Shown here one piece after another: positions 1-28,207 of a stretch of 28,207 bases of DNA. A program made the position numbers and the translations under genes. The stretch's first letter is position 1. Each line of letters starts with the position of its first letter. Below the pieces are notes generated by a model. The model ran no database searches. It was given only the letters and a program-made list of their open reading frames with translations, and was not told the DNA's origin. The DNA is from a virus, in the IMG/VR virus record IMGVR_UViG_3300044695_004236, positions 1 through 28,207 of that record; one strand, written 5' to 3'.

Positions 1-1839
1 GTTGAACTGGTGTGGAGCACCGGCGCCCAGGTGCGTCGTGCGAGCTGGGCTCGCGGCGACTACATCGAGGAGCTGAGCATGGCGCCTGGCGCTGTGCGGA
101 TGGAGCGACTGAACAAGGGAGCTCCGCTGCTCGATGCGCACGACTCCTATTCGCTGCGCAGCCAGATCGGTGTGGTGCAGCGAGCATGGCTGGACGGGAA
201 CGAGGGCCGCGCCCTGGTGAAGTTCAGCCGGCGGGATGAAGTCGAGAGCGTCTTCCAGGATGTGATCGACGGCATCTACCGCAACGTGTCTGTGGGCTAC
301 AAGGTCCACAAGACGGAGCGTGATGAGACCGGCGCAGTGCCGGTTGAGCGCGCAGTGGACTGGGAGCCGTATGAGCTCTCGCTGGTCCCGATCCCGGCTG
401 ATGCCGGGGCCCAGGTGCGCTCCGAGGAGCCGCCTGCAACCCAACCTTCCGAAAAGGAACGATCCATGACCCTTCCCGCGAATGGGGTGCAGGCTCCCGA
501 GCCCACCCAGGAGAACGAAACCCGGGCCGCTGCGCCTGTCGCGCCTGCTGCTGCGCCTGCCGCCCCTGTGGTGGATGCAGAGGCTGTGCGCGCCGACGAG
601 CGCCGCCGCGCCGCCGGCATCCTCGATGCCGCCCGCAAGCTGCAGGTGGGCGAGGACATGGCGCACAAGCTGATCGCTGACGGTGTGTCGCTCGACGAGG
701 CCCGCATGCAGCTGATCGACGCCCGCGCCACCGAGGAGCGCCAGACCCCTGGCCAGACCCGCATGGAGGTGCGTGAAGACCACGGCGAGAAGCGCGCCGC
801 CGCGAAGCTCGACTACCTGAAGGTCCGCGCCGGCCTGGCCAGCCTGGACGATGCGCCGGCCGCCCGCGAGTATCGGGGCAGCACCCTGCTCGACATGGCC
901 CGCGAATCCCTGGAGCTGGCCGGCGTCAGCCATCGCGGGATGGACAAGAGCGAGATCGCCGTGCGTGCCATGCACAGCACCAGCGACTTCCCGCTGCTGA
1001 TGGCCAGCATCCAGCGCGTGACGCTGAAGGCGGCCTATGCCGAAGAGGTGCAGACCTGGCGGCCGCTGGCGGAGCAGCGGAACCTGCCCGACTTCCGCGA
1101 GATGAAGGAGATCGAGGTGGGCGGCCAGATGCTGCCTGAGGAGATCCGCGAGGGCGGGGAGTACAAGGCGGGGACGCTGCAGGAGCAACAGGGCAGCTGG
1201 TTCCTGAGCGAGTACGGGAAGAAGCTGGTGATCGGCCGCCGGCTGATCATCAACGACAACCTGGGCTACATCACCCGCGCTGTGCAGGTGCTGGCCCGTG
1301 GCGTCTCGGTGTTCGAGGCGAACCAGATGTGGGGGCTGATCACTGGCAACGCCAAGTGCATGAGCGACGGCCAGGCCCTGTTCCACGCCAGCCACAACAA
1401 CACCGGCACCGGCGCGATCGGTGAGACCTCCATCTCGGAAGCGCGTCAGAAGATGCGCAACCAGAAGGACTTCACCGGCAAGAACCCGCTGTACGTGGTG
1501 CCGCAGTACATCCTGCTGCCGACCACGCTGGAGACGGCGTTCGACAAGTTCAACACCACGATCGTTCCCAACCAGACCAGCAACGTCAACATCTTCTCGG
1601 GCTACCTGCAGAAGATCGTTGAGCCGCGCCTGGATGCGAGCAGCACCAGCCAGTGGTACATCGTGGGCAACTACCCCGGCGTGGACAAGCTGGTGTACGG
1701 CTACCTGGAGGGCGAAGCAGGGCCGACGATCGAGTCGGAGATCAAGCGCGATCCCGATGGCATTACCACCTACCTGCGGCACGACTGGGGCTGCATGGTG
1801 AGCCAGCACCAGGGCTTCTACCGCTCCACTGGCCAGTGA
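1..1839 (+). CDS. Prohead protease / major capsid protein fusion (5' end off the window)
   Basis: The protein matures and builds the icosahedral shell. The first ~140 residues are a U35/S78-type prohead protease: a WSTGAQVRR start motif, a LLDAHDSYSL block holding the likely catalytic His, and an RNVSVGY block holding the likely catalytic Ser (H44 and S94 counted from the GTG at 10). A Pro/Ala-rich linker and a charged helical, scaffold-like stretch follow. From about residue 260 comes a Mu-like/HK97-fold capsid domain ending in a TTYLRHDWG motif. Frame 1 is open back to base 1 and relatives carry residues before the WSTGA motif, so the true start lies upstream and the GTG at 10 is not convincing. 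An internal ATG at 466 sits at the protease/capsid boundary. Terminase and portal genes are expected to the left. The fusion architecture is known in phages and prophages. Confidence 0.9.
   Translation, partial: VELVWSTGAQVRRASWARGDYIEELSMAPGAVRMERLNKGAPLLDAHDSYSLRSQIGVVQRAWLDGNEGRALVKFSRRDEVESVFQDVIDGIYRNVSVGYKVHKTERDETGAVPVERAVDWEPYELSLVPIPADAGAQVRSEEPPATQPSEKERSMTLPANGVQAPEPTQENETRAAAPVAPAAAPAAPVVDAEAVRADERRRAAGILDAARKLQVGEDMAHKLIADGVSLDEARMQLIDARATEERQTPGQTRMEVREDHGEKRAAAKLDYLKVRAGLASLDDAPAAREYRGSTLLDMARESLELAGVSHRGMDKSEIAVRAMHSTSDFPLLMASIQRVTLKAAYAEEVQTWRPLAEQRNLPDFREMKEIEVGGQMLPEEIREGGEYKAGTLQEQQGSWFLSEYGKKLVIGRRLIINDNLGYITRAVQVLARGVSVFEANQMWGLITGNAKCMSDGQALFHASHNNTGTGAIGETSISEARQKMRNQKDFTGKNPLYVVPQYILLPTTLETAFDKFNTTIVPNQTSNVNIFSGYLQKIVEPRLDASSTSQWYIVGNYPGVDKLVYGYLEGEAGPTIESEIKRDPDGITTYLRHDWGCMVSQHQGFYRSTGQ
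454..465 (+). promoter_or_regulatory. Internal Shine-Dalgarno before an in-frame ATG at the capsid boundary
   Basis: AAGGA at 454-458 stands 7 bases before ATG 466, which is in frame with the fusion and opens MTLPANGV just after the protease domain. Initiation here would give a 457-residue scaffold-plus-capsid protein without the protease. Seen: the motif, spacing and frame. Inferred: its use in vivo. Confidence 0.5.
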
Positions 1840-2212: not shown

Positions 2213-3572
<1,360 letters not shown>

Positions 3573-3574
3573 TC

Positions 3575-4186
3575 ATGTCTGACAACATCATCGTCAATCC
3601 TGAAACCTTGGTCCGCTATTACGAAAGCGGGCCACTCGAGGGCCGGTCAGTGGATCGGTTCGTACCATTGCGCGGAGACTTGCCAACAAACCCTGGAGGC
3701 GTCGAATGGCCGAACCGTTTTGGTAGGCCCTACGACGGCACCCAGATCAAGTTCTACCTGAGGCGCGAACCTCAGGTGCGCGAGTACGACTCTCAGATTT
3801 TCTACGAGGTGGCTAGCTGGGGGCCTGTGGACTATCCGAACCCGAAGATCGGAGGCCCTGCTGGGACATGGGAAGAGACGTTGGAGGTGCTCCGTCGGCC
3901 AGAGCAGGATCTGCTCAATCAGGTGGAGGCAGCGCGCCTGCAGGCCAACGCCCGGCTGTATCCGAGCAACGAAGATCCAATGCTGGCCGTGCTGCTGGCT
4001 GAGGCTATCCGGCGGGATCAGGAGGGCACGGCAACTGCCGCCATGATCGACCTGCTGCAGCGACATCAGGCACTGGTCGAGGCGGGCTACGGCAACATAG
4101 AGCGGGCGAAAGAGCTGCGCCAGCAGATCGAGGCAGGCCAGCCGTTTGACCTCTCTGCTGGATGGATCAATGAGCTGCCAGCATGA
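3575..4186 (+). CDS. Unknown protein of the head/neck fibre group
   Basis: A 203-residue protein I cannot assign. The N-terminal half (1-100) is mixed, with many aromatic and Gly/Pro residues (VRYYESGPLEG, FYLRREPQVREYDSQIFYEVASWG). The C-terminal half (~105-200) is strongly helical and charged (LLNQVEAARLQANARL, AKELRQQIEAG). That layout, and a place between two fibre genes, resembles accessory or chaperone proteins encoded beside phage fibres, but no motif proves it. I chose ATG 3575 over TTG 3569; the latter would overlap the preceding stop by a few bases and cannot be excluded. Confidence 0.6.
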   Translation: MSDNIIVNPETLVRYYESGPLEGRSVDRFVPLRGDLPTNPGGVEWPNRFGRPYDGTQIKFYLRREPQVREYDSQIFYEVASWGPVDYPNPKIGGPAGTWEETLEVLRRPEQDLLNQVEAARLQANARLYPSNEDPMLAVLLAEAIRRDQEGTATAAMIDLLQRHQALVEAGYGNIERAKELRQQIEAGQPFDLSAGWINELPA

Positions 4187-4207
4187 GTGGCGCAGGGGGC
4201 CTTATGC

Positions 4208-4214
4208 AGGAGGG
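4208..4214 (+). promoter_or_regulatory. Strong Shine-Dalgarno that sets the start of the adhesin-like gene
   Basis: AGGAGGG lies 6 bases before ATG 4221 and selects it over the in-frame ATG at 4170, which overlaps the previous gene and has no such signal. A 14-codon frame (ATG 4183, overlapping the previous stop as ATGA, ending TGA 4225-4227) terminates right at ATG 4221 and could feed ribosomes to it. Confidence 0.6.
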
Positions 4215-4220
4215 AATCGG

Positions 4221-4991
4221 ATGCTGATTGTTCAGAGACGGAGGGCGGCTGCCTACGACCCCGACGCGCAGGCGTACATCACTGCCGTCGAGGCAGCGGA
4301 TGGGCAGGCGCTGGAGACTGGCGTGCGTGATGGCATCAATGCGTTCGTGGTCGGCTGCAAGGCAGACGGCATCTGGAGCGCCATCAAGACGAGCTGCATC
4401 TTGGCCGGTGCTCGCACGCTGGCTGGTGCGCTGGTGCCGCTGGTGGGGGCGGCGCCGACAAACTTTAATTTTGTGGCGGGGGATTACAACAGGAAAACGG
4501 GGTTAGTGGGAAATGGGAGCACGAAGTATTTGAACAGCAACCGCAACAACAACGCGGACCCGCAAAATAGCTTTCATATGAGCTGCTATGTCACGGTGAT
4601 AGCGTCTGCGACTTCCGTCTACATGGGCGGTGGCGTGACAACGGCCGAGACTGGCATTAGCAACATGGGCCGATCCGCTGCGTCCACTTTTGCGCGCAAC
4701 AGAGCAGGCACAGCCGGCACAAGTCTGTCAGCTTTGCCCGTAGGGTTTGTGGCTACTGACCGATCCAGTTCAACAAATTATACACGCCGCGCAAATGGCG
4801 CCCAAGACTCCCGCACGGAAGCGAGCCAGTCGCCGTCGTCGTTTGATCTCATGGTGTTTTCCTCCACTGGCGGGGCCTTCCCTTCTAACGCCCGCCTCGC
4901 CTTCTACTCCATCGGCGAATCCCTAGACCTCGCCCTGCTCGACGCCCGCGTGACCGCTCTGATCGACGCCATCGCGGCGACGATCCCGTAA
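4221..4991 (+). CDS. Adhesin-like structural protein (possible head/neck fibre tip)
   Basis: A 256-residue protein. Residues ~13-75 are a helical segment (AQAYITAVEAADGQALETGV, then FVVGCKADGIWSAIKTSCILAGARTLAGALVPLVG). Residues ~80-240 are beta-rich, containing GDYNRKTGLVGNGSTKYLN and many Ser/Thr/Asn, compatible with a lectin-like (concanavalin/LamG type) jelly roll. I recall the same helix-plus-GDYNRKTGLVG arrangement from phage structural proteins, but this is memory, not a search. A short C-terminal helix (LDARVTALIDAIAATIP) could mediate trimerisation. Placement after the collagen-like gene suggests a shared fibre. Bases 4460-4560 are AT-richer than the surroundings. Confidence 0.62.
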   Translation: MLIVQRRRAAAYDPDAQAYITAVEAADGQALETGVRDGINAFVVGCKADGIWSAIKTSCILAGARTLAGALVPLVGAAPTNFNFVAGDYNRKTGLVGNGSTKYLNSNRNNNADPQNSFHMSCYVTVIASATSVYMGGGVTTAETGISNMGRSAASTFARNRAGTAGTSLSALPVGFVATDRSSSTNYTRRANGAQDSRTEASQSPSSFDLMVFSSTGGAFPSNARLAFYSIGESLDLALLDARVTALIDAIAATIP

Positions 4992-9262: not shown

Positions 9263-10948
9263 ATGACGCTTCAACCCCGCCGAATTAGTGAATTGCCTTC
9301 GCTGACGGACCCGGTCACCGACGATCTGCTGCCGGTTATCGATGTCAGCGAGCCTGAAAGAGTAGACCGGAACAAAAAGATTGATCTTGGGCGACTTCGT
9401 TCGTTCATTCTGGCGCTTGGCGCGGTGCCGAACCATCCAGTCTACAAAACGATCTATGTATCACCTGACGGCAGCAATGCTGCCACCGGGCGGAATGAAG
9501 CGGCACCGGTCGCTCACATCGAACGTGCGCTAGAGATAATTGAAAGCCAGCCCGACCCAAATGGTTGGGCCGTCAAACTGCTCGGGGATGTTTATTCAGC
9601 CGGCGAAATTCCTACGCCCGATAATACTACGATCATCAGCCATAACATGCAGCGGCGGGCGACTGTGCGTCCGACTTCAGGCAATGAACAGCGCAATGTT
9701 TTTCTTTGCGGCAATGGTGTTCATATCTATGGCGTGAAGTTCGCCGGCTGGCGGATCGATGATTTCGACAACCCTACCAAGGGTTTCGCCATGACCTTCC
9801 GACCTGGCTCCGTCATCCTGCCAGGTGGTGTGCCGTATGGGCAGAACTGCGTGGTGTCGAGTTCTATCAGCGGCATTCCAACACCGCTGCCGATGGATGC
9901 GGTGAACGGCAACCCGGCTCACCCGCGCGGGGGTGGCTGTGTGCTGGCTGATGCCTCGGTGCTGTCGGCCTACACGGTCTATCCAAACATCATGACGTGG
10001 GGGTTCACCCCAAGCTCGCCTAATGGGATGGGCTATGTGGCCAGGAACCGCGGCTTTGTCAACCCGGTCAACGCTATCGGCGTCGGGGCTCACCGGCACT
10101 TCATGTGCCTCGATGGTGGGCAGATGGTGGTCAGCGGATCGAGTTCGCAGTTCGGCGATTACAGCTTCTGGAGCGAGGGCAGCACGCAGCAGGTGGTGCC
10201 CCTCAAGGTGGCCGCCGGTTCGATTGCCGTACAGGCCGGGGCCGCGGCTATAATCAACTCGCAAAGGACCGCGCTGATCGACAGCATGTGGGCGTTCCTG
10301 GTGGCGAATTACGGAGCCGGCTCGTGGCCAGCGTCCTATCAGCCCCTGACCCGAGCGGATGCAGGCCTGTTCCTCGATGCGCTGTCCGCCTGCCTGGTTC
10401 ACGGCTTCGACCGGCCGATGCGTAACTTCGCCGAGGGGATGTTCAAGTTTGATGGCACCTGCGTCTACAGCTATCCCTTCCACGCGGCCTTCAAGGCCAG
10501 CTGGGATCGGCTGGTGGTGCAGCTGATCGCCGGGGGGCAGCTCACCACCGCCGCCGCGGCCTTCACCAACGCCCTGGTGGCCCGGCTGAAGGCCACGCTC
10601 GACAACCACTGGTTTGAGGTGGGCCAGGGCCCGGCGCCGTCACCGGTGGAGCCAGTGCGGCGCAAGCTGCGCAGCCTCATCACGGCGATCAACCACCAGT
10701 GGACAGCACCGCTTTCCGGCGTGGAGTTCTACCGGGTGCCGCCGGCCAAGGCCGCCCGGCAGATCAAGCGCTCGATCGTGCAGAAGAACGGTGGCCAGGT
10801 GCGCTTCAGCGGCCAGGATGACGTCGGTAACGCGGTGTTCGTCGGTGGCCTGACCATTGACGCGCGCAGCGGCCAGCTGGGCGGCCCGCCGTTCGACTCT
10901 GCCATCCGCAGCCGCGTCACTCGCGCGATCATCTCCAGGAGCTACTGA
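9263..10948 (+). CDS. Beta-helix tail fibre/baseplate protein
   Basis: A 561-residue structural protein. Residues 1-45 carry a virion-attachment style opening (ISELPSLTDPVTDDLLPVIDVSEP, NKKIDLGRL). From ~64 a pectate-lyase-like beta-helix begins with IYVSPDGSNAATG and the helix AHIERALEIIE, passing through MVVSGSSSQFGDYSFWSEGS. Residues ~330-470 are helical. The end (VRFSGQDDVGNAVFVGGLTIDARSGQLGGPPF) reminds me of a C-terminal module in T4-like cyanophage structural proteins; this is recollection. It occupies the place of P2 fibre gene H. No enzymatic residues are evident, so a purely structural or receptor role is favoured over depolymerase. Confidence 0.7.
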   Translation: MTLQPRRISELPSLTDPVTDDLLPVIDVSEPERVDRNKKIDLGRLRSFILALGAVPNHPVYKTIYVSPDGSNAATGRNEAAPVAHIERALEIIESQPDPNGWAVKLLGDVYSAGEIPTPDNTTIISHNMQRRATVRPTSGNEQRNVFLCGNGVHIYGVKFAGWRIDDFDNPTKGFAMTFRPGSVILPGGVPYGQNCVVSSSISGIPTPLPMDAVNGNPAHPRGGGCVLADASVLSAYTVYPNIMTWGFTPSSPNGMGYVARNRGFVNPVNAIGVGAHRHFMCLDGGQMVVSGSSSQFGDYSFWSEGSTQQVVPLKVAAGSIAVQAGAAAIINSQRTALIDSMWAFLVANYGAGSWPASYQPLTRADAGLFLDALSACLVHGFDRPMRNFAEGMFKFDGTCVYSYPFHAAFKASWDRLVVQLIAGGQLTTAAAAFTNALVARLKATLDNHWFEVGQGPAPSPVEPVRRKLRSLITAINHQWTAPLSGVEFYRVPPAKAARQIKRSIVQKNGGQVRFSGQDDVGNAVFVGGLTIDARSGQLGGPPFDSAIRSRVTRAIISRSY

Positions 10949-10949
10949 C

Positions 10950-11453
10950 ATGCCCCGCATCAGAACCGATCAGCCAAGCAGCGGGAAGCCGTTGCTGCTG
11001 TTCATCCCGTCCACGACCAACGACGGCTTCGTAAACACCACATGGAGCACGATCGCCGAGGCGCCAGATTTCTCGATCCCCGCCAGCGGCGACGATGGAA
11101 CGGCGAGTGACCCGGCAGACAACGGCCGCGAGCTGCGACCTGGAGAGGTGTTCTTCGAGACGCCACTGCAGGCGATCAACACCACTGCCACGACCCGGTG
11201 GGTCGAGCTGCAGGTGCTGCTGCAGGGCGCCAGCGGTCAGGCGATTCGGGTGTCGCCGCAAGTGGCGGTGCCGGCGAACGAGTCGGTGTTCCTGCTGACG
11301 CAGGGCCTGCGGCTGCTTAAAACTGACCTGACCAATACGCAGCCAGGGGGGCGGCTGCAGATTCGGGCAGAGGTGGCGAACGCCATCACGATCATCGGCA
11401 CCGCCGTCGAGCTGGAGGCCGCCAACCATTCGCCCGATACGGAGGCACCCTGA
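10950..11453 (+). CDS. Unknown structural protein of the fibre cassette
   Basis: A 167-residue protein with a strong ribosome site (AGGAG at 10937-10941, 8 bases before ATG 10950). It is almost entirely beta: LLLFIPSTTNDGFVNTTWS, VFFETPLQAINTT, WVELQVLLQG and RLQIRAEVANAITIIG. Many Thr/Asn/Gly and no Cys fit a virion protein. No family recognised. Overlapping the following gene as TGATG, it likely joins the same complex, perhaps as a fibre collar or sandwich domain. Confidence 0.6.
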   Translation: MPRIRTDQPSSGKPLLLFIPSTTNDGFVNTTWSTIAEAPDFSIPASGDDGTASDPADNGRELRPGEVFFETPLQAINTTATTRWVELQVLLQGASGQAIRVSPQVAVPANESVFLLTQGLRLLKTDLTNTQPGGRLQIRAEVANAITIIGTAVELEAANHSPDTEAP

Positions 11454-12196
11454 TGACGATGGACAGGCTTAAGACCGGCTCTGGCAAACAACTGCGCACT
11501 GCAGCCCTCGCGGTAGTACAGCTGCCGGTGCCGTATGCCGCCGCTGCAATGCCTGGGGCGATAGTGCTGGGCAGCAATGGCAGGCTGCACGCCTCTGTCT
11601 TTACTGAAGCGGGCCTCTACACTTGGAGCCAAATCTGGACGAGCAACAGAAATCAGCTGATCAGGCTTGACAGAAACGATGCAACACCAGCGACAATCTT
11701 TTTAGAGAAACAGAGGTCTGACGCCAGCCTTGCTGTAGTTAATGACAACATTGGGAGCATCAACTTTGAGGCCCGCAATCAGTCGGGGCTGATTGCTCAG
11801 TGTGGCTCGGTAAATGTATTCGTCGATTCCCCTACGTCGCCGGATACGATCTCGGCCGCTATGCGTTTTTCGTACAGACCGCTGGCCCTAGCCGGGTCGA
11901 TACCAAATCTGCCGGTTGGCCTAATCATCTCCTCCTCTGGCAACGTCCTGATCAACAACACCAGCGGCACTGAGCGGCTCTCCGTCACCGGCAACATCCA
12001 ACTCACCAACACCGCCGACAGCTACAGAGTCGGCACCAACAACGTCGTCGGCTCCCGCAAGACCGGCTGGGGGCCGCCCACCGGCACCGCCACCCGCACT
12101 GCGTTCGCCACCTCCACCGTCACCTTGGCCCAGCTCGCCGAGCGCGTCAAAGCGCTCATCGACGACCTCACCTCCCACGGCCTCATCGGGGCCTGA
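11453..12196 (+). CDS. Tail fibre-like protein
   Basis: A 247-residue fibre protein. The N-terminus (LKTGSGKQLRTAALAVVQLP) precedes a variable beta region (45-150), then GNVLINNTSGTERLSVTGNIQL, a phrase typical of phage fibres, and YRVGTNNVVGSRKTGWGPPTGTATRTAF. The end (TVTLAQLAERVKALIDDLTSHGLIGA) is a coiled-coil often seen closing such fibres. Either ATG 11453 (overlapping stop) or ATG 11459 could start. Bases ~11640-11830 are AT-richer than the rest of the gene, suggesting an exchanged receptor segment. Confidence 0.68.
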   Translation: MTMDRLKTGSGKQLRTAALAVVQLPVPYAAAAMPGAIVLGSNGRLHASVFTEAGLYTWSQIWTSNRNQLIRLDRNDATPATIFLEKQRSDASLAVVNDNIGSINFEARNQSGLIAQCGSVNVFVDSPTSPDTISAAMRFSYRPLALAGSIPNLPVGLIISSSGNVLINNTSGTERLSVTGNIQLTNTADSYRVGTNNVVGSRKTGWGPPTGTATRTAFATSTVTLAQLAERVKALIDDLTSHGLIGA

Positions 12197-12210
12197 CACC
12201 ACCACTTGCC

Positions 12211-12384
12211 ATGCAAGACCAACTCATCACCATCGTGAACTCCTACGCCGCAGCACGGGCCAGCGGTGACACCGTGCTGCAGCAGTTCGCTGCCCAACAA
12301 CTCGGCGCCTTCCTGGAAGCTGTCGAGATCGTCCCCAAGGGCGACGCCAACCCCGCCCCTGAGGAGACCCCCGCCAATGACTGA
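12211..12384 (+). CDS. Small helical protein of the fibre cassette (57 aa)
   Basis: A 57-codon frame filling the gap after the fibre gene. The product is one long helix (LITIVNSYAAARASGDTVLQQFAAQQLGAFLEAVEIV) with a Pro/Glu-rich end. It overlaps the next start (ATG 12377) by 8 bases, a good sign of a real coupled gene. Function unknown; a fibre assembly helper or small coiled-coil adaptor is conceivable. Confidence 0.52.
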   Translation: MQDQLITIVNSYAAARASGDTVLQQFAAQQLGAFLEAVEIVPKGDANPAPEETPAND

Positions 12385-12733
12385 ACCGACCGTCACCAAC
12401 ACCTGGCGCATCGAGCGCCTCGATGTCGCACCCATCGAGGGCGCCCTCACCAACGTCATCCGCAAGATCCACTGGCGCCTGTTCGGCAGCGACGGCACCA
12501 ACACCCTCGACATCTACGGCGACGCGCTCTTGGGTGATGCCGACCCCAGTGCGTTCACCCCCTTTGAGGAGCTGACGCAGCCCGTGGTGATCGACTGGCT
12601 AGAGGCTGCGATCGACGCCCGCGCCGGTGATGAGGAGCCGACGGTGGCCCAGATGCGCACCGGCCTGGCAGAGATGCTGGCCGCAAAGCGCACCCCGTCC
12701 ATGGTGCCGATGCCGATGCCGTGGGAGCCTTGA
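12377..12733 (+). CDS. Small phage protein, possible fibre accessory
   Basis: A 118-residue protein with the pattern TNTWRIERLDVAPIEGALTNVIRKIHWRLFGSDG, a beta stretch, then PFEELTQPVVIDWLEAAI and a Pro/Met-rich end (MVPMPMPWEP). I recall this layout (WxIE..., V..VHWR..., L(T/S)..VV.W, ...PLPW) from uncharacterised phage proteins encoded beside fibres. It is not a known enzyme. The start overlaps the preceding small gene; other ATGs upstream in frame have no support. Confidence 0.6.
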   Translation: MTEPTVTNTWRIERLDVAPIEGALTNVIRKIHWRLFGSDGTNTLDIYGDALLGDADPSAFTPFEELTQPVVIDWLEAAIDARAGDEEPTVAQMRTGLAEMLAAKRTPSMVPMPMPWEP

Positions 12734-24582: not shown

Positions 24583-24791
24583 CCCAGACCTACGTCACCC
24601 GGCAGTTCGATGAGGTGGACGCGATCTGCCACGCCTACTACGGGCGCACGCAGCAGACCGTCGAGGCGGTGCTGCTCGTCAACCCGGGCCTGGCCGACAT
24701 GGCGCCGATCCTCCCCGAGGGCCTGGCCATCCTGCTGCCCGACATCCCAGAGCCCAGCGTGTCTGAGGTGGTAAGAATCTGGGATCCATGA
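24579..24791 (+). CDS. X: Tail protein gpX
   Basis: A 70-residue protein matching P2 gpX: a TYVTRQFDEVDAICHAYYGRT opening (gpX has DTLDAICVRYYGRT), VEAVLLVNPGLADMAPILPEGLAILLPD, and an acidic/aromatic end. It has a LysM-like layout. It starts on the ATG overlapping gpU's stop and its own stop overlaps gpD, both ATGA. The length is normal. Confidence 0.92.
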   Translation: MTQTYVTRQFDEVDAICHAYYGRTQQTVEAVLLVNPGLADMAPILPEGLAILLPDIPEPSVSEVVRIWDP

Positions 24792-26623
24792 CCACACCCG
24801 CATTCCGTGTCGTCGCGGACGGCACCGACATCACCGACAAGATCAAGGATCGCCTGCTCAGCCTGCGCATCACCGACCAGGCCGGCCAACAGAGCGACAG
24901 CCTGGAGATCGCCGTCGACGACCGGGAAAAGCGGATGCCCGCTCCACGCCACGGGGCATGGCTGCGCGTCTGGCTGGGGTACAGCGCAGCCGGCCAGGCA
25001 CCGTCCTACATGGGCGCATTCGCCGTCGATGAGGTGGACTTCAGCTGCGGCCCACGCTCGATGGTCATCAAGGCGACCGCTGCGCAGACCGCCCCTGAGT
25101 TGACGAAGGAAAGCCGCACGCAGAGCTGGAGCAACAAGACCCTCGGCCAGGTGGTGCAGGAGATCGCCAAGCGCAACGGCCTCCAGCCGGTGATCAACAA
25201 GCCGCTCAGCGACATCCAGATCAAGCACGAGGACCAGACCAACGAGACCGACCAGGCCTTCCTCACCCGCCTGGCGGAGAAGTACAAGGCCACCATCAAG
25301 CCGGCTGACGGCAAGCTGGTGGTGGTGGAGCGCGGCAAGGGCGCGGCCAGCCCGGTGCCCAACCCAACCGGCCGCGTCACCGCCGGCCAGGCCACCGCCC
25401 TCGCGCGCCAGGCCGGCTTCACCGGCAACGACGCGGTGATCATGGGAGCAATCGCCATGGCCGAGAGCAGCGGTAACGTGCGGGCGCTCAACAGCAAGCC
25501 CCCCGACCTGTCCTATGGCCTGTGGCAGATCAACATGATCGGCCGGCTGGGGCCCGAGCGCCGCGCCCAGCTGGGCCTGTCGAGCAACGAGCAGCTCTAC
25601 AACCCTGCCACCAACGCCAGGGCCGCGCGGGCGATCTGGCAGCAGCAGGGCTTCAACGCCTGGTCGGTCTACAAGAGCGGCGCTTACCGTCGCTACCTCA
25701 ACGCTGCGCAGCAGTCTGCCGGCGCTGTCGGCAGCATCGATGGCCTGCTGAAGGGGAGCTTCACGATCAAGGAGCAGGAGGTGAGCACCTGGCGCGCCAC
25801 CCTCAAGGGCCGCGGCGCATACGATGCCGTCACGACGAAGTGGCTGGACCGCGCCACCAACAAGGAGAAGACGCACACCGCCGGCCAGGCGAATGGCCAG
25901 CTGCCCACCTTCGAGGAGAAGCAGCTCTACAAGACGGAGGAGGAGGCAACGTCGGCGGCGGACAGCAAGCTCCAGTCGCTGCGCTCAGGTGAGGTGCGGG
26001 TGTCGATCACCATGCCCGGCCGGCCGGATCTGAACGCAGAGGGCAACATCACGCTGGAAGGGTTCAGGCCTGAGGTCGACGGCACATGGATCGCCAAGAC
26101 CATCACGCACGACCTGGGCCCCAGCGGCTACAGCACCTCGGTGGAGTGTGGCACCCAGGGCGATGAGAACGATGGGTGGGTCAACGGTGAGGGCAGCGGA
26201 GCGAACAACGGCAAGCCGGCAGGCGAGAAGGCCCGCCTGGTGTCGCAGGCGGCCGAGCGCGCGCGCGGGATGAACACCAAGGGCGGCCCGGATGGTGGCA
26301 ACAATGCTTGCCTGTTCGCCGTGAACAAGGTACTCAGGAGCGCTGGCATCACACCACCCTGGGGCAACAGCAACTACGTCCCTACCGCACGGAGCACACT
26401 GGCATCTGGCGCTGGCACGCTGCTGTCTGGCCCCGAGCCTGGCGCCATCGCAATCATGCGCGACAACGGCAGTCCCCCTTACCCTCACATCGGAATCGTC
26501 GGCAACGATGGCCGCACCATCATCAGCAACAGCTCCAGCCGGGGGACCTTCTCCTGGGCGGCCGGCGAGGGGAGCTACACCAGCACCTACGGGCGCACTC
26601 CCGAATACTGGCGGCTGAAGTAA
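24788..26623 (+). CDS. D: Baseplate hub gpD fused to two wall-hydrolase domains
   Basis: A 611-residue hub. Residues 1-185 and ~318-460 are the two halves of gpD (late control D): FRVVADGTDITDKIKDRLLSLRITD, APSYMGAFAVDEVDFSCGP, WSNKTLGQVVQEIAKRNGL, FLTRLAEKYKATI; then FTIKEQEVSTWRATLKGRGAYDAV, ITMPGRPDLNAEGNITLEGFR and GYSTSVECG. Between them (~197-305) lies a transglycosylase-like domain: GAIAMAESSGN with likely catalytic Glu226, SYGLWQIN (244-249) and WSVYKSGAYRRY. After 480 comes a cysteine-hydrolase domain of NlpC/P60 or CHAP type: NNACLFAVNKVL (C508), PGAIAIM and PHIGIVGN (H567). P2 gpD has about 390 residues and neither enzyme. The start overlaps gpX as ATGA. Confidence 0.88.
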   Translation: MTTPAFRVVADGTDITDKIKDRLLSLRITDQAGQQSDSLEIAVDDREKRMPAPRHGAWLRVWLGYSAAGQAPSYMGAFAVDEVDFSCGPRSMVIKATAAQTAPELTKESRTQSWSNKTLGQVVQEIAKRNGLQPVINKPLSDIQIKHEDQTNETDQAFLTRLAEKYKATIKPADGKLVVVERGKGAASPVPNPTGRVTAGQATALARQAGFTGNDAVIMGAIAMAESSGNVRALNSKPPDLSYGLWQINMIGRLGPERRAQLGLSSNEQLYNPATNARAARAIWQQQGFNAWSVYKSGAYRRYLNAAQQSAGAVGSIDGLLKGSFTIKEQEVSTWRATLKGRGAYDAVTTKWLDRATNKEKTHTAGQANGQLPTFEEKQLYKTEEEATSAADSKLQSLRSGEVRVSITMPGRPDLNAEGNITLEGFRPEVDGTWIAKTITHDLGPSGYSTSVECGTQGDENDGWVNGEGSGANNGKPAGEKARLVSQAAERARGMNTKGGPDGGNNACLFAVNKVLRSAGITPPWGNSNYVPTARSTLASGAGTLLSGPEPGAIAIMRDNGSPPYPHIGIVGNDGRTIISNSSSRGTFSWAAGEGSYTSTYGRTPEYWRLK

Positions 26624-26646
26624 CCTGCATGGATCGAGGCGACGCT

Positions 26647-26934
26647 ATGCCTGAGCACGAAGTCTCCCACGGGGACATCTACCACAAGCTCGGGGCCCTG
26701 GAGGGGAAGCTCGATGCTGTGATGGTCTCCGTCGCCGAGAAACGAACAGACCTGGCCGATGCCTTCAAGCGACTGGTTGAGGTCGAGAAGCGTGTCGCCC
26801 AAGGTGTAATCCTGGCAGTGGTGATCAGCTTCATTGCGCCGGTGATCTGGTCCGCAGTTGGCGCACGGCTACACTTTGCTGGACCACCGGCTGAGGTCAG
26901 CAGCCATGACCAACGACCCGGGACTGCTCCCTGA
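26647..26934 (+). CDS. Holin-like/XhlA-like membrane protein
   Basis: A 95-residue protein with an N-terminal coiled coil (HGDIYHKLGALEGKLDAVMVSV, then LADAFKRLVEVEKRV) and one hydrophobic segment at ~53-72 (GVILAVVISFIAPVIWSAV). This layout resembles XhlA/holin-associated proteins next to phage lysins. GAGG at 26636-26639, 7 bases before ATG 26647, favours this start; ATG 26629 is the alternative and would add 6 residues. Directly upstream of the C39-like gene, with a 29-base overlap, it fits a lysis module. A holin role is likely but unproven; a spanin or signalling anchor is possible. Confidence 0.68.
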   Translation: MPEHEVSHGDIYHKLGALEGKLDAVMVSVAEKRTDLADAFKRLVEVEKRVAQGVILAVVISFIAPVIWSAVGARLHFAGPPAEVSSHDQRPGTAP

Positions 26935-27649
26935 CATCGTTCCGTTCTTCGAGCACTGGAAGGGCCTGCCCCATCAGCGGGCCGGTGCTCAGCAGTTCTG
27001 GGAGGCGGTGCCCGCCAGCCTGAAGCGCCGCGACGCCAGCTGGTATCAGACCTGGCAGGGCGCCGGGAAGCAGGAGCAGCCGCGCACCCTCAGCAATCCG
27101 CTGCAGGTGCCCTACTACAGCCAGCGCGACTCCACCACCGCGCACGCCCTCCGGATGTGCTTCAGCAGCTCCTGCGCCATGCTGCTCGAGGCGCTCAAGA
27201 CCGGCACCCTCAAGGGGCCCAACGGTGATGACACCTACCTGGGCCGCGTGTTCCGCTACGGCGACACCACTGAGGCCCCGAACCAGATCAAGGCGCTGGC
27301 CCACTACGGCGTCACCGCCCACCTGAACCAGACCTGCACGCCGGCGGACGTGAAGGCCCAGATCGACAAGGGCATCCCCGTCCCCCTGGGCTGCATCCAC
27401 AAGGGCGGTCTCGGCAACCTCCACGGCGACGGGCACTGGCTGATCGCCATCGGCTACGACGCCACCAACTTCATCGTCCACGACCCGTTCGGCGAGATGG
27501 ACGTGCTGAATGGCGGCTACGTCAACAACTGGGGGGCCAGGCTGCGCTACTCGCTTCGCAACTTCTGCCGTCGCTGGGAGGTGGTGCCATCAGGCAACAG
27601 CTACCGCTACGCGCCCGGCAACGGCTGGGCCATCATCGCCACACGCTGA
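26906..27649 (+). CDS. C39-like cysteine peptidase (probable endolysin)
   Basis: A 247-residue protein with a papain-like C39 peptidase fold. Residues 66-72 (LQVPYYSQ) start the domain; C85 in MCFSSSCAM is the likely nucleophile, H177 in GDGHWLIAIGYD the base and D193 in FIVHDPFGE the third member. The block QIKALAHYGVTAHLN and GIPVPLGCIHK fit between them. An extra N-terminal part (1-60) has aromatic residues and Lys/Arg. Lying behind a holin-like gene it probably cuts peptide cross-links at lysis. The GAGG at 26893-26896 supports ATG 26906. There is no signal peptide. Confidence 0.75.
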   Translation: MTNDPGLLPDIVPFFEHWKGLPHQRAGAQQFWEAVPASLKRRDASWYQTWQGAGKQEQPRTLSNPLQVPYYSQRDSTTAHALRMCFSSSCAMLLEALKTGTLKGPNGDDTYLGRVFRYGDTTEAPNQIKALAHYGVTAHLNQTCTPADVKAQIDKGIPVPLGCIHKGGLGNLHGDGHWLIAIGYDATNFIVHDPFGEMDVLNGGYVNNWGARLRYSLRNFCRRWEVVPSGNSYRYAPGNGWAIIATR

Positions 27650-28203
27650 TGCAACTCTCCGACCTGGTGCGCGTCTACCCTGGCGCGCTCACCCGCAAGA
27701 GCTGCAACGAGCTGATCACCGGCTTCGAAGCCCTGCAGGGCGAGCACATCATCCGGCAGGATGATGGCCCTGGCGCACCCCGGTTCGTCGAGCTCAACCT
27801 GACGCAGCAGTGGGAGCGAGGGCACGAGATCGCATTCGAGGCCATCTTGCCGCTGTTCGAGGCCTACAGCCGCGACCTGCAGATCAACACCGCGCAGTGG
27901 CCCGAGGAGCTGGCGTTCGAGGAGCTGCGGATCAAGCGCTACCAGCCCGGTGGCGATGACGAGTTCCCCGATCACGTCGATGTGGGCGACCATGCCAGCG
28001 CCCGCCGCTTCCTGGCCGCGCTGCTCTACCTCAACGACGTCGATGATGGCGGGGCCACTGAGTTCCCGCAGTGGGGCCAGCAGATCCAGCCGCGGGCTGG
28101 GTCGGTGGTGGTGTTCCCGCCGCTGTGGCCATGGCTGCACGCTGGCCAGCCGCCAGTGTCCGGGCCGAAGTACATCCTCAGCACCTACCTTCACTACACC
28201 TAG
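27649..28203 (+). CDS. 2-oxoglutarate/Fe(II)-dependent oxygenase
   Basis: A complete 184-residue gene. It is a cupin-fold dioxygenase of the prolyl-4-hydroxylase/PiuC type: the iron triad is H109 and D111 in FPDHVDV and H164 in WLHAG, with K174 in the place of the 2-oxoglutarate-binding basic residue. ELRIKRYQPG, RFLAALLYLNDVDDGGATEFPQ and RAGSVVVFPP are the usual strands. Such oxygenases are recurrent in cyanophages and other marine phages; their substrate (protein side chains, nucleobases or others) is unknown here. Overlapping the peptidase gene as TGATG, it belongs to the late transcript and may modify a virion or lysis protein. Confidence 0.88.
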   Translation: MQLSDLVRVYPGALTRKSCNELITGFEALQGEHIIRQDDGPGAPRFVELNLTQQWERGHEIAFEAILPLFEAYSRDLQINTAQWPEELAFEELRIKRYQPGGDDEFPDHVDVGDHASARRFLAALLYLNDVDDGGATEFPQWGQQIQPRAGSVVVFPPLWPWLHAGQPPVSGPKYILSTYLHYT

Positions 28204-28207
28204 CCTG

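Follow-up and report, generated by a model that had tools for sequence, protein, structure and literature searches.

Genomic setting of the oxygenase gene

The window, i.e. the whole stretch of DNA analysed, was a virus record of 28.2 kb. A 2OG-Fe(II) oxygenase of 184 aa (PF13640/phrog_61) was encoded at 27649..28203 on the plus strand. The preliminary description had placed such a gene here, and the call was upheld by a complete ORF with an ATG start and a TAG stop, the contig ending 4 bases past the stop. In profile searches, PF13640 scored 46.7 bits against a curated cut-off of 27 (E 6e-12) and phrog_61 matched residues 1-183, the full length, with E 3e-39. These values put the assignment far above chance. 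NCBIfam held no model for the protein. PADLOC matched only with its generic 'CRISPR-associated 2OG' model, which spanned the same PF13640 stretch, and a defence role was discarded.

The genes upstream were encoded on the same strand. The final structural gene before the lysis cassette was a gpD-like baseplate hub (24788..26623) whose profile matches comprised an SLT lysozyme domain and one more domain at the C-terminus. Several relatives matched a single hub ORF in parts only, so the hub may be split or its middle replaced. A small protein (26647..26934) with one hydrophobic segment, recognised by eye, and a weak match to phrog_5225 preceded the endolysin; it might be a holin-like part of the cassette, which is a weak assignment. 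The endolysin (26906..27649) was of the C39 type according to profile matches to Peptidase_C39_2 (PF13529) and to phrog_10051, a cyanophage endolysin family. Its stop codon TGA and the ATG of the oxygenase overlapped by one base (TGATG). A search for promoter-like and terminator-like sites at 26400-28207 found none, which is weak evidence, and Rfam found nothing in the window. The oxygenase had been described as a late-operon gene translationally coupled to the lysis gene. The coupling agreed with the TGATG overlap and the lysis-cassette context was conserved across relatives; late expression is suggested by gene order only.

Other genes in the window encoded a contractile sheath, a gpU-like protein, a DUF4815 protein and several fibres, and relatives showed the same gene order on contigs of 42-50 kb. 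Prohead protease and major capsid protein formed a single fused gene (window 10-1839; NF045541, phrog_4523). Four fibre-region genes for proteins of 561, 198, 247 and 155 aa were located between gpI and a gpH-like gene (9263-12733). Among the relatives compared, they had matches in one contig only (G022) and thus look like a variable tail-fibre module. Copies of the oxygenase were present in Synechococcaceae and Cyanobium genome assemblies, a scan of genome contigs yielding four loci only, and many relatives carried an integrase-like gene downstream on the opposite strand. Based on these two observations, the phage is probably temperate, and its genes point to a P2-like myovirus of freshwater picocyanobacteria (Cyanobium/Synechococcaceae). 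In two relatives, the integrase adjoined a tRNA-Met (CAT) gene (L217, 16418-18723; L053, 12472-13907), a possible attachment site.

Catalytic residues, predicted fold and family affiliation

The metal ligands H109, D111 and H164 and the 2OG-binding K174, listed as intact in the preliminary description, were found at these positions and were invariant in all 45 sequences compared. PF13640 was matched by all 24 members of alignment A1. Pairwise dN/dS among eight lysis-cassette copies ranged from 0.19 to 0.64, indicating that the protein is maintained by purifying selection. Together with the predicted fold, the intact residues and these ratios suggest an apparently active enzyme.

The structure model had a pLDDT of 83, with values of 54-60 at residues 101-120, the segment holding F106, H109, D111 and R120. 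It showed a double-stranded beta-helix of the prolyl-hydroxylase type. The viral collagen prolyl hydroxylase (vCPH) of PBCV-1 was the top match in the fold comparison (Z 16.4, rmsd 2.9, 164 residues aligned), followed by the Pseudomonas P4H (Z 15.7) and PHD2 (Z 15.5). Foldseek was also run on the model, and the PBCV-1 enzyme was the closest solved fold. The earlier remark that this enzyme family includes prolyl hydroxylases was therefore borne out at the level of fold class. No AlkB structure stood near the top among the fold matches listed, an absence that by itself proves nothing.

According to a structural study, an arginine that holds the substrate proline (Arg161 in CrP4H, Arg322 in PHD2) is found in every prolyl 3- and 4-hydroxylase, and a tyrosine is also common to all P4Hs (Tyr140 in CrP4H, Tyr310 in PHD2; PMC4396695). 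R120, at the active-site opening, aligned with the P4H arginine and was conserved in 45 of 45 sequences. The tyrosine position, read from aligned P4H chains, lies three residues before the first iron histidine and was occupied by F106, with phenylalanine in 44 of 45 sequences. Hydroxylation at proline C-4 is thus not assured, and the oxygenase was not filed as a P4H. By its residues and modelled fold, it is best described as a putative prolyl-hydroxylase-like protein hydroxylase, presumably acting on peptides but not necessarily at C-4 of proline.

Several characterised enzymes resembled the protein. PBCV-1 vCPH (5c5t/5c5u) was similar in fold, in the HxD...H...K arrangement and in the conserved arginine; it differed in sequence (18-19% identity) and in having tyrosine in place of phenylalanine three residues before the first histidine, and the window oxygenase had no consistent collagen-like partner. 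The Pseudomonas putida P4H (4j25, and 4iw3, solved with EF-Tu) shared the prolyl-hydroxylase fold with Z 15.3-15.7 (15.3 for 4iw3). The Bacillus anthracis P4H (3itq; 5v7y, 'modifies EF-Tu') was a sequence match with E 3e-6. Identity of these bacterial P4Hs to the window oxygenase was about 18-20%.

Among 50,697 phage records, 451 matched the oxygenase, nearly all of them T4-like cyanophages, with a best identity of 47.8%. The nearest isolate relatives were the phrog_61 oxygenases of the cluster named T4-GC 104 in GenBank notes, e.g. in S-8S56, S-PRM1, Syn33, P-SSM4 and syn9. They were of equal length and 34-48% identical across the entire protein, and they shared the invariant residues, among them R120, K174 and F106 (syn9 has Tyr at this last position). 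These phages are large and lytic, and most of their copies are located in the uvsX-gp41 replication operon; the window copy, by contrast, is a lysis-cassette gene of a temperate P2-like phage and falls into a clade of its own. In 12 of 16 annotated regions examined, the relative adjoined a uvsX/recA or gp41/primase-helicase gene, usually between both; an OM43 phage showed the order recA-oxygenase-primase. The Pelagibacter and Rhizobium relatives, as well as two genes at greater distance (Sf-CH1a and P-SSM2), were away from uvsX/gp41-type neighbours, and an additional record carried no annotation. With endolysin and GH24 lysozyme as neighbours in place of uvsX and gp41, the window gene, although homologous to T4-GC 104, was not filed as its orthologue.

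Distant paralogues, whose terminal branches measured 2.7 to 10 changes, were taken out of the first tree. Fifteen lysis-cassette oxygenases formed one clade with 100/100 support, and its sister sequences, in the phylogeny proposed by the preliminary description, came from the replication operon. Testing the uvsX-linked sequences as a single clade gave a p-AU of 0.07. The family is not new as such, being well documented in viruses of marine cyanobacteria. For cyanophage 2OG oxygenases, DNA repair and 2OG/nitrogen signalling have been put forward, in neither case from experiments with the genes themselves (PMC3037559, PMC2984593, PMC9602691, PMC9146016), and the literature reports no substrate or activity for any family member (PMC9602691).

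Lysis cassettes with and without the oxygenase

In relatives, the endolysin gene was followed by the oxygenase and then by GH24 lysozyme and integrase, with a small membrane-type protein encoded ahead of the lysozyme in some. The succession of endolysin, oxygenase and GH24 recurred in about 14 loci. The TGATG overlap was present in 8 of 16 oxygenase-bearing sequences, the window included; the other eight junctions had a gap of 6-13 nt, most of them with an SD-like AGAAGG or AAAAGG. About half of the close relatives had no oxygenase, and their endolysin ran directly to the GH24 part. The gene was absent even from phages with 93-95% identical endolysins. On the endolysin tree, its presence requires at least three gains or losses.

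The oxygenase tree sorted by junction type and not by the endolysin tree. Sequences L041, L003, L046, L125, L213 and L204 grouped by junction, either with a gap of 10-13 nt or with TGATG, across two deep endolysin clades. This grouping suggests recombination inside the lysis cassette, and the oxygenase can be read as an optional gene inserted into a recombining cassette.

Candidate substrates and roles

The preliminary description had guessed that the enzyme acts on the collagen-like fibre encoded at 2592..3572 on the plus strand, which has 46 Gly-X-Y triplets. DNA repeats with a 36-nt period occurred at 2592-4991, where a fibre cassette of variable content separates the head-decoration gene from the tail terminator. 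This cassette was collagen-stalked in the window, G011, G022 and G023, lacked the stalk but had the same C-terminal domain in G024, G031, G032 and G037, and was absent in G009, G015 and G017. Nine oxygenase-bearing contigs included the fibre locus. The Gly-X-Y repeat was present in the window and G011 and missing from the stretch examined in the other seven, namely G009, G010, G015, G024, G031, G032 and the Cyanobium contig (examined from 20 to 59.5 kb). The oxygenase thus persists without collagen. Contigs that lack the oxygenase and include the fibre locus numbered two only (G017, G004), and the collagen-bearing G022 and G023 ended short of the lysis region. Of the 29 prolines in the repeats, 28 were at position X; only 1 of the 46 triplets had proline at Y, so Gly-X-Pro sites were nearly lacking, and enzyme and partner did not occur together consistently. 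Given the comparison of carriers and the proline positions, the collagen pairing was rejected as a general explanation.

A prolyl or lysyl hydroxylase that stabilises the triple helix of the phage's own fibre is accordingly very improbable. Both genes occur together in the window and G011, the closest solved fold is that of a viral collagen prolyl hydroxylase, the fibre has three X-Lys-Gly sites, and the B. anthracis P4H is able to act at X and Y (PMC8968730). These points are outweighed by the seven carriers without the repeat, three of which retain the fibre C-terminal domain minus the stalk, and by the missing P4H tyrosine. Moreover, the collagen P4H site is Y (PMC4543633), which holds a single repeat proline here, and bacterial collagen-like proteins do not need hydroxyproline for stable helices. 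In this one phage, the enzyme may act on collagen as well.

The AlkB family carries a C-terminal R-x5-R motif in which arginine binds 2OG. An AlkB-like role in repairing, protecting or modifying phage DNA or RNA is proposed in the literature for the uvsX-linked relatives and is consistent with the uvsX-oxygenase-gp41 order of most T4-like cyanophage relatives and with the recA-oxygenase-primase order in the OM43 phage. The R-x5-R motif was absent from the oxygenase, however: K174 took this place in 45 of 45 sequences with no arginine after it. Prolyl hydroxylases headed the fold list, the Pfam search gave no AlkB match, and the gene was away from repair genes here and in the Rhizobium and Pelagibacter relatives, which makes such a role unlikely. 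Little probability was likewise given to a metabolic moron that consumes 2OG or hydroxylates a small molecule, thereby shifting the 2OG/nitrogen signal or host metabolism in favour of infection or lysogeny. 2OG oxygenases normally require their prime substrate, the arginine contacting the peptide proline was invariant, and a single late lysis-linked copy is badly placed to change metabolism. These arguments stand against the optional presence of the gene, its recombination-like pattern and the 2OG-signal hypothesis for cyanophages (PMC3037559). A function in lysis itself, in which hydroxylation of the endolysin, the lysozyme, a holin-like protein or a protein of the cell envelope would set the timing of lysis or assist it, would fit the location between the endolysin and GH24 genes in these phages and the overlap found in half of the junctions. 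It was judged rather improbable, given the discordant oxygenase and endolysin trees, the absence of the oxygenase next to 93-95% identical endolysins and the location of relatives in other phages far from lysis genes.

The explanation preferred here, at about an even chance of being correct, is a late phrog_61-family Fe(II)/2-oxoglutarate oxygenase that hydroxylates a protein side chain, encoded by an optional insert in the endolysin-oxygenase-GH24 lysozyme cassette of a temperate P2-like myovirus. The catalytic residues, predicted fold, conserved position, purifying selection and single clade were obtained by sequence analysis and comparison. The enzyme would be made late with the tail and lysis proteins through read-through and, in this phage, translational coupling. 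It would use O2 and 2OG, releasing succinate and CO2, and most likely modify a prolyl residue. The target would be a protein present in all carriers. Candidates that seem likelier than the collagen-like fibre are a conserved phage protein and a host protein, the latter of the translation-factor type by analogy with the Pseudomonas and Bacillus enzymes. The phenylalanine in place of the P4H tyrosine, the uvsX-gp41 location of most relatives and the low pLDDT at residues 101-120 count against this explanation.

2OG oxygenases are among the most frequent auxiliary genes of cyanophages. As a gene family, the oxygenase is ordinary, and its setting in the lysis cassette is somewhat informative. The idea of DNA repair draws on uvsX as the neighbouring gene. 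This argument is weakened by a copy that is stably kept under selection in so different a setting, a temperate phage's lysis cassette. Members of the phrog_61 family occur in two unrelated operons, in T4-like cyanophages that are lytic and in P2-like ones that are temperate. The conserved residues, among which the classical P4H tyrosine is missing, argue for protein hydroxylation. In this phage group of ~45-50 kb the gene is present once, which makes tests simpler than in T4-like cyanophages with their 1-24 paralogues. A speculative and unlikely extension is that the family constitutes a distinct kind of peptide hydroxylase, with the prolyl-hydroxylase fold and arginine and with phenylalanine for the P4H tyrosine, which modifies one conserved host protein, e.g. 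a translation factor, during infection. If true, this would to our knowledge make it the first protein hydroxylation encoded by a bacteriophage for which the target is known.
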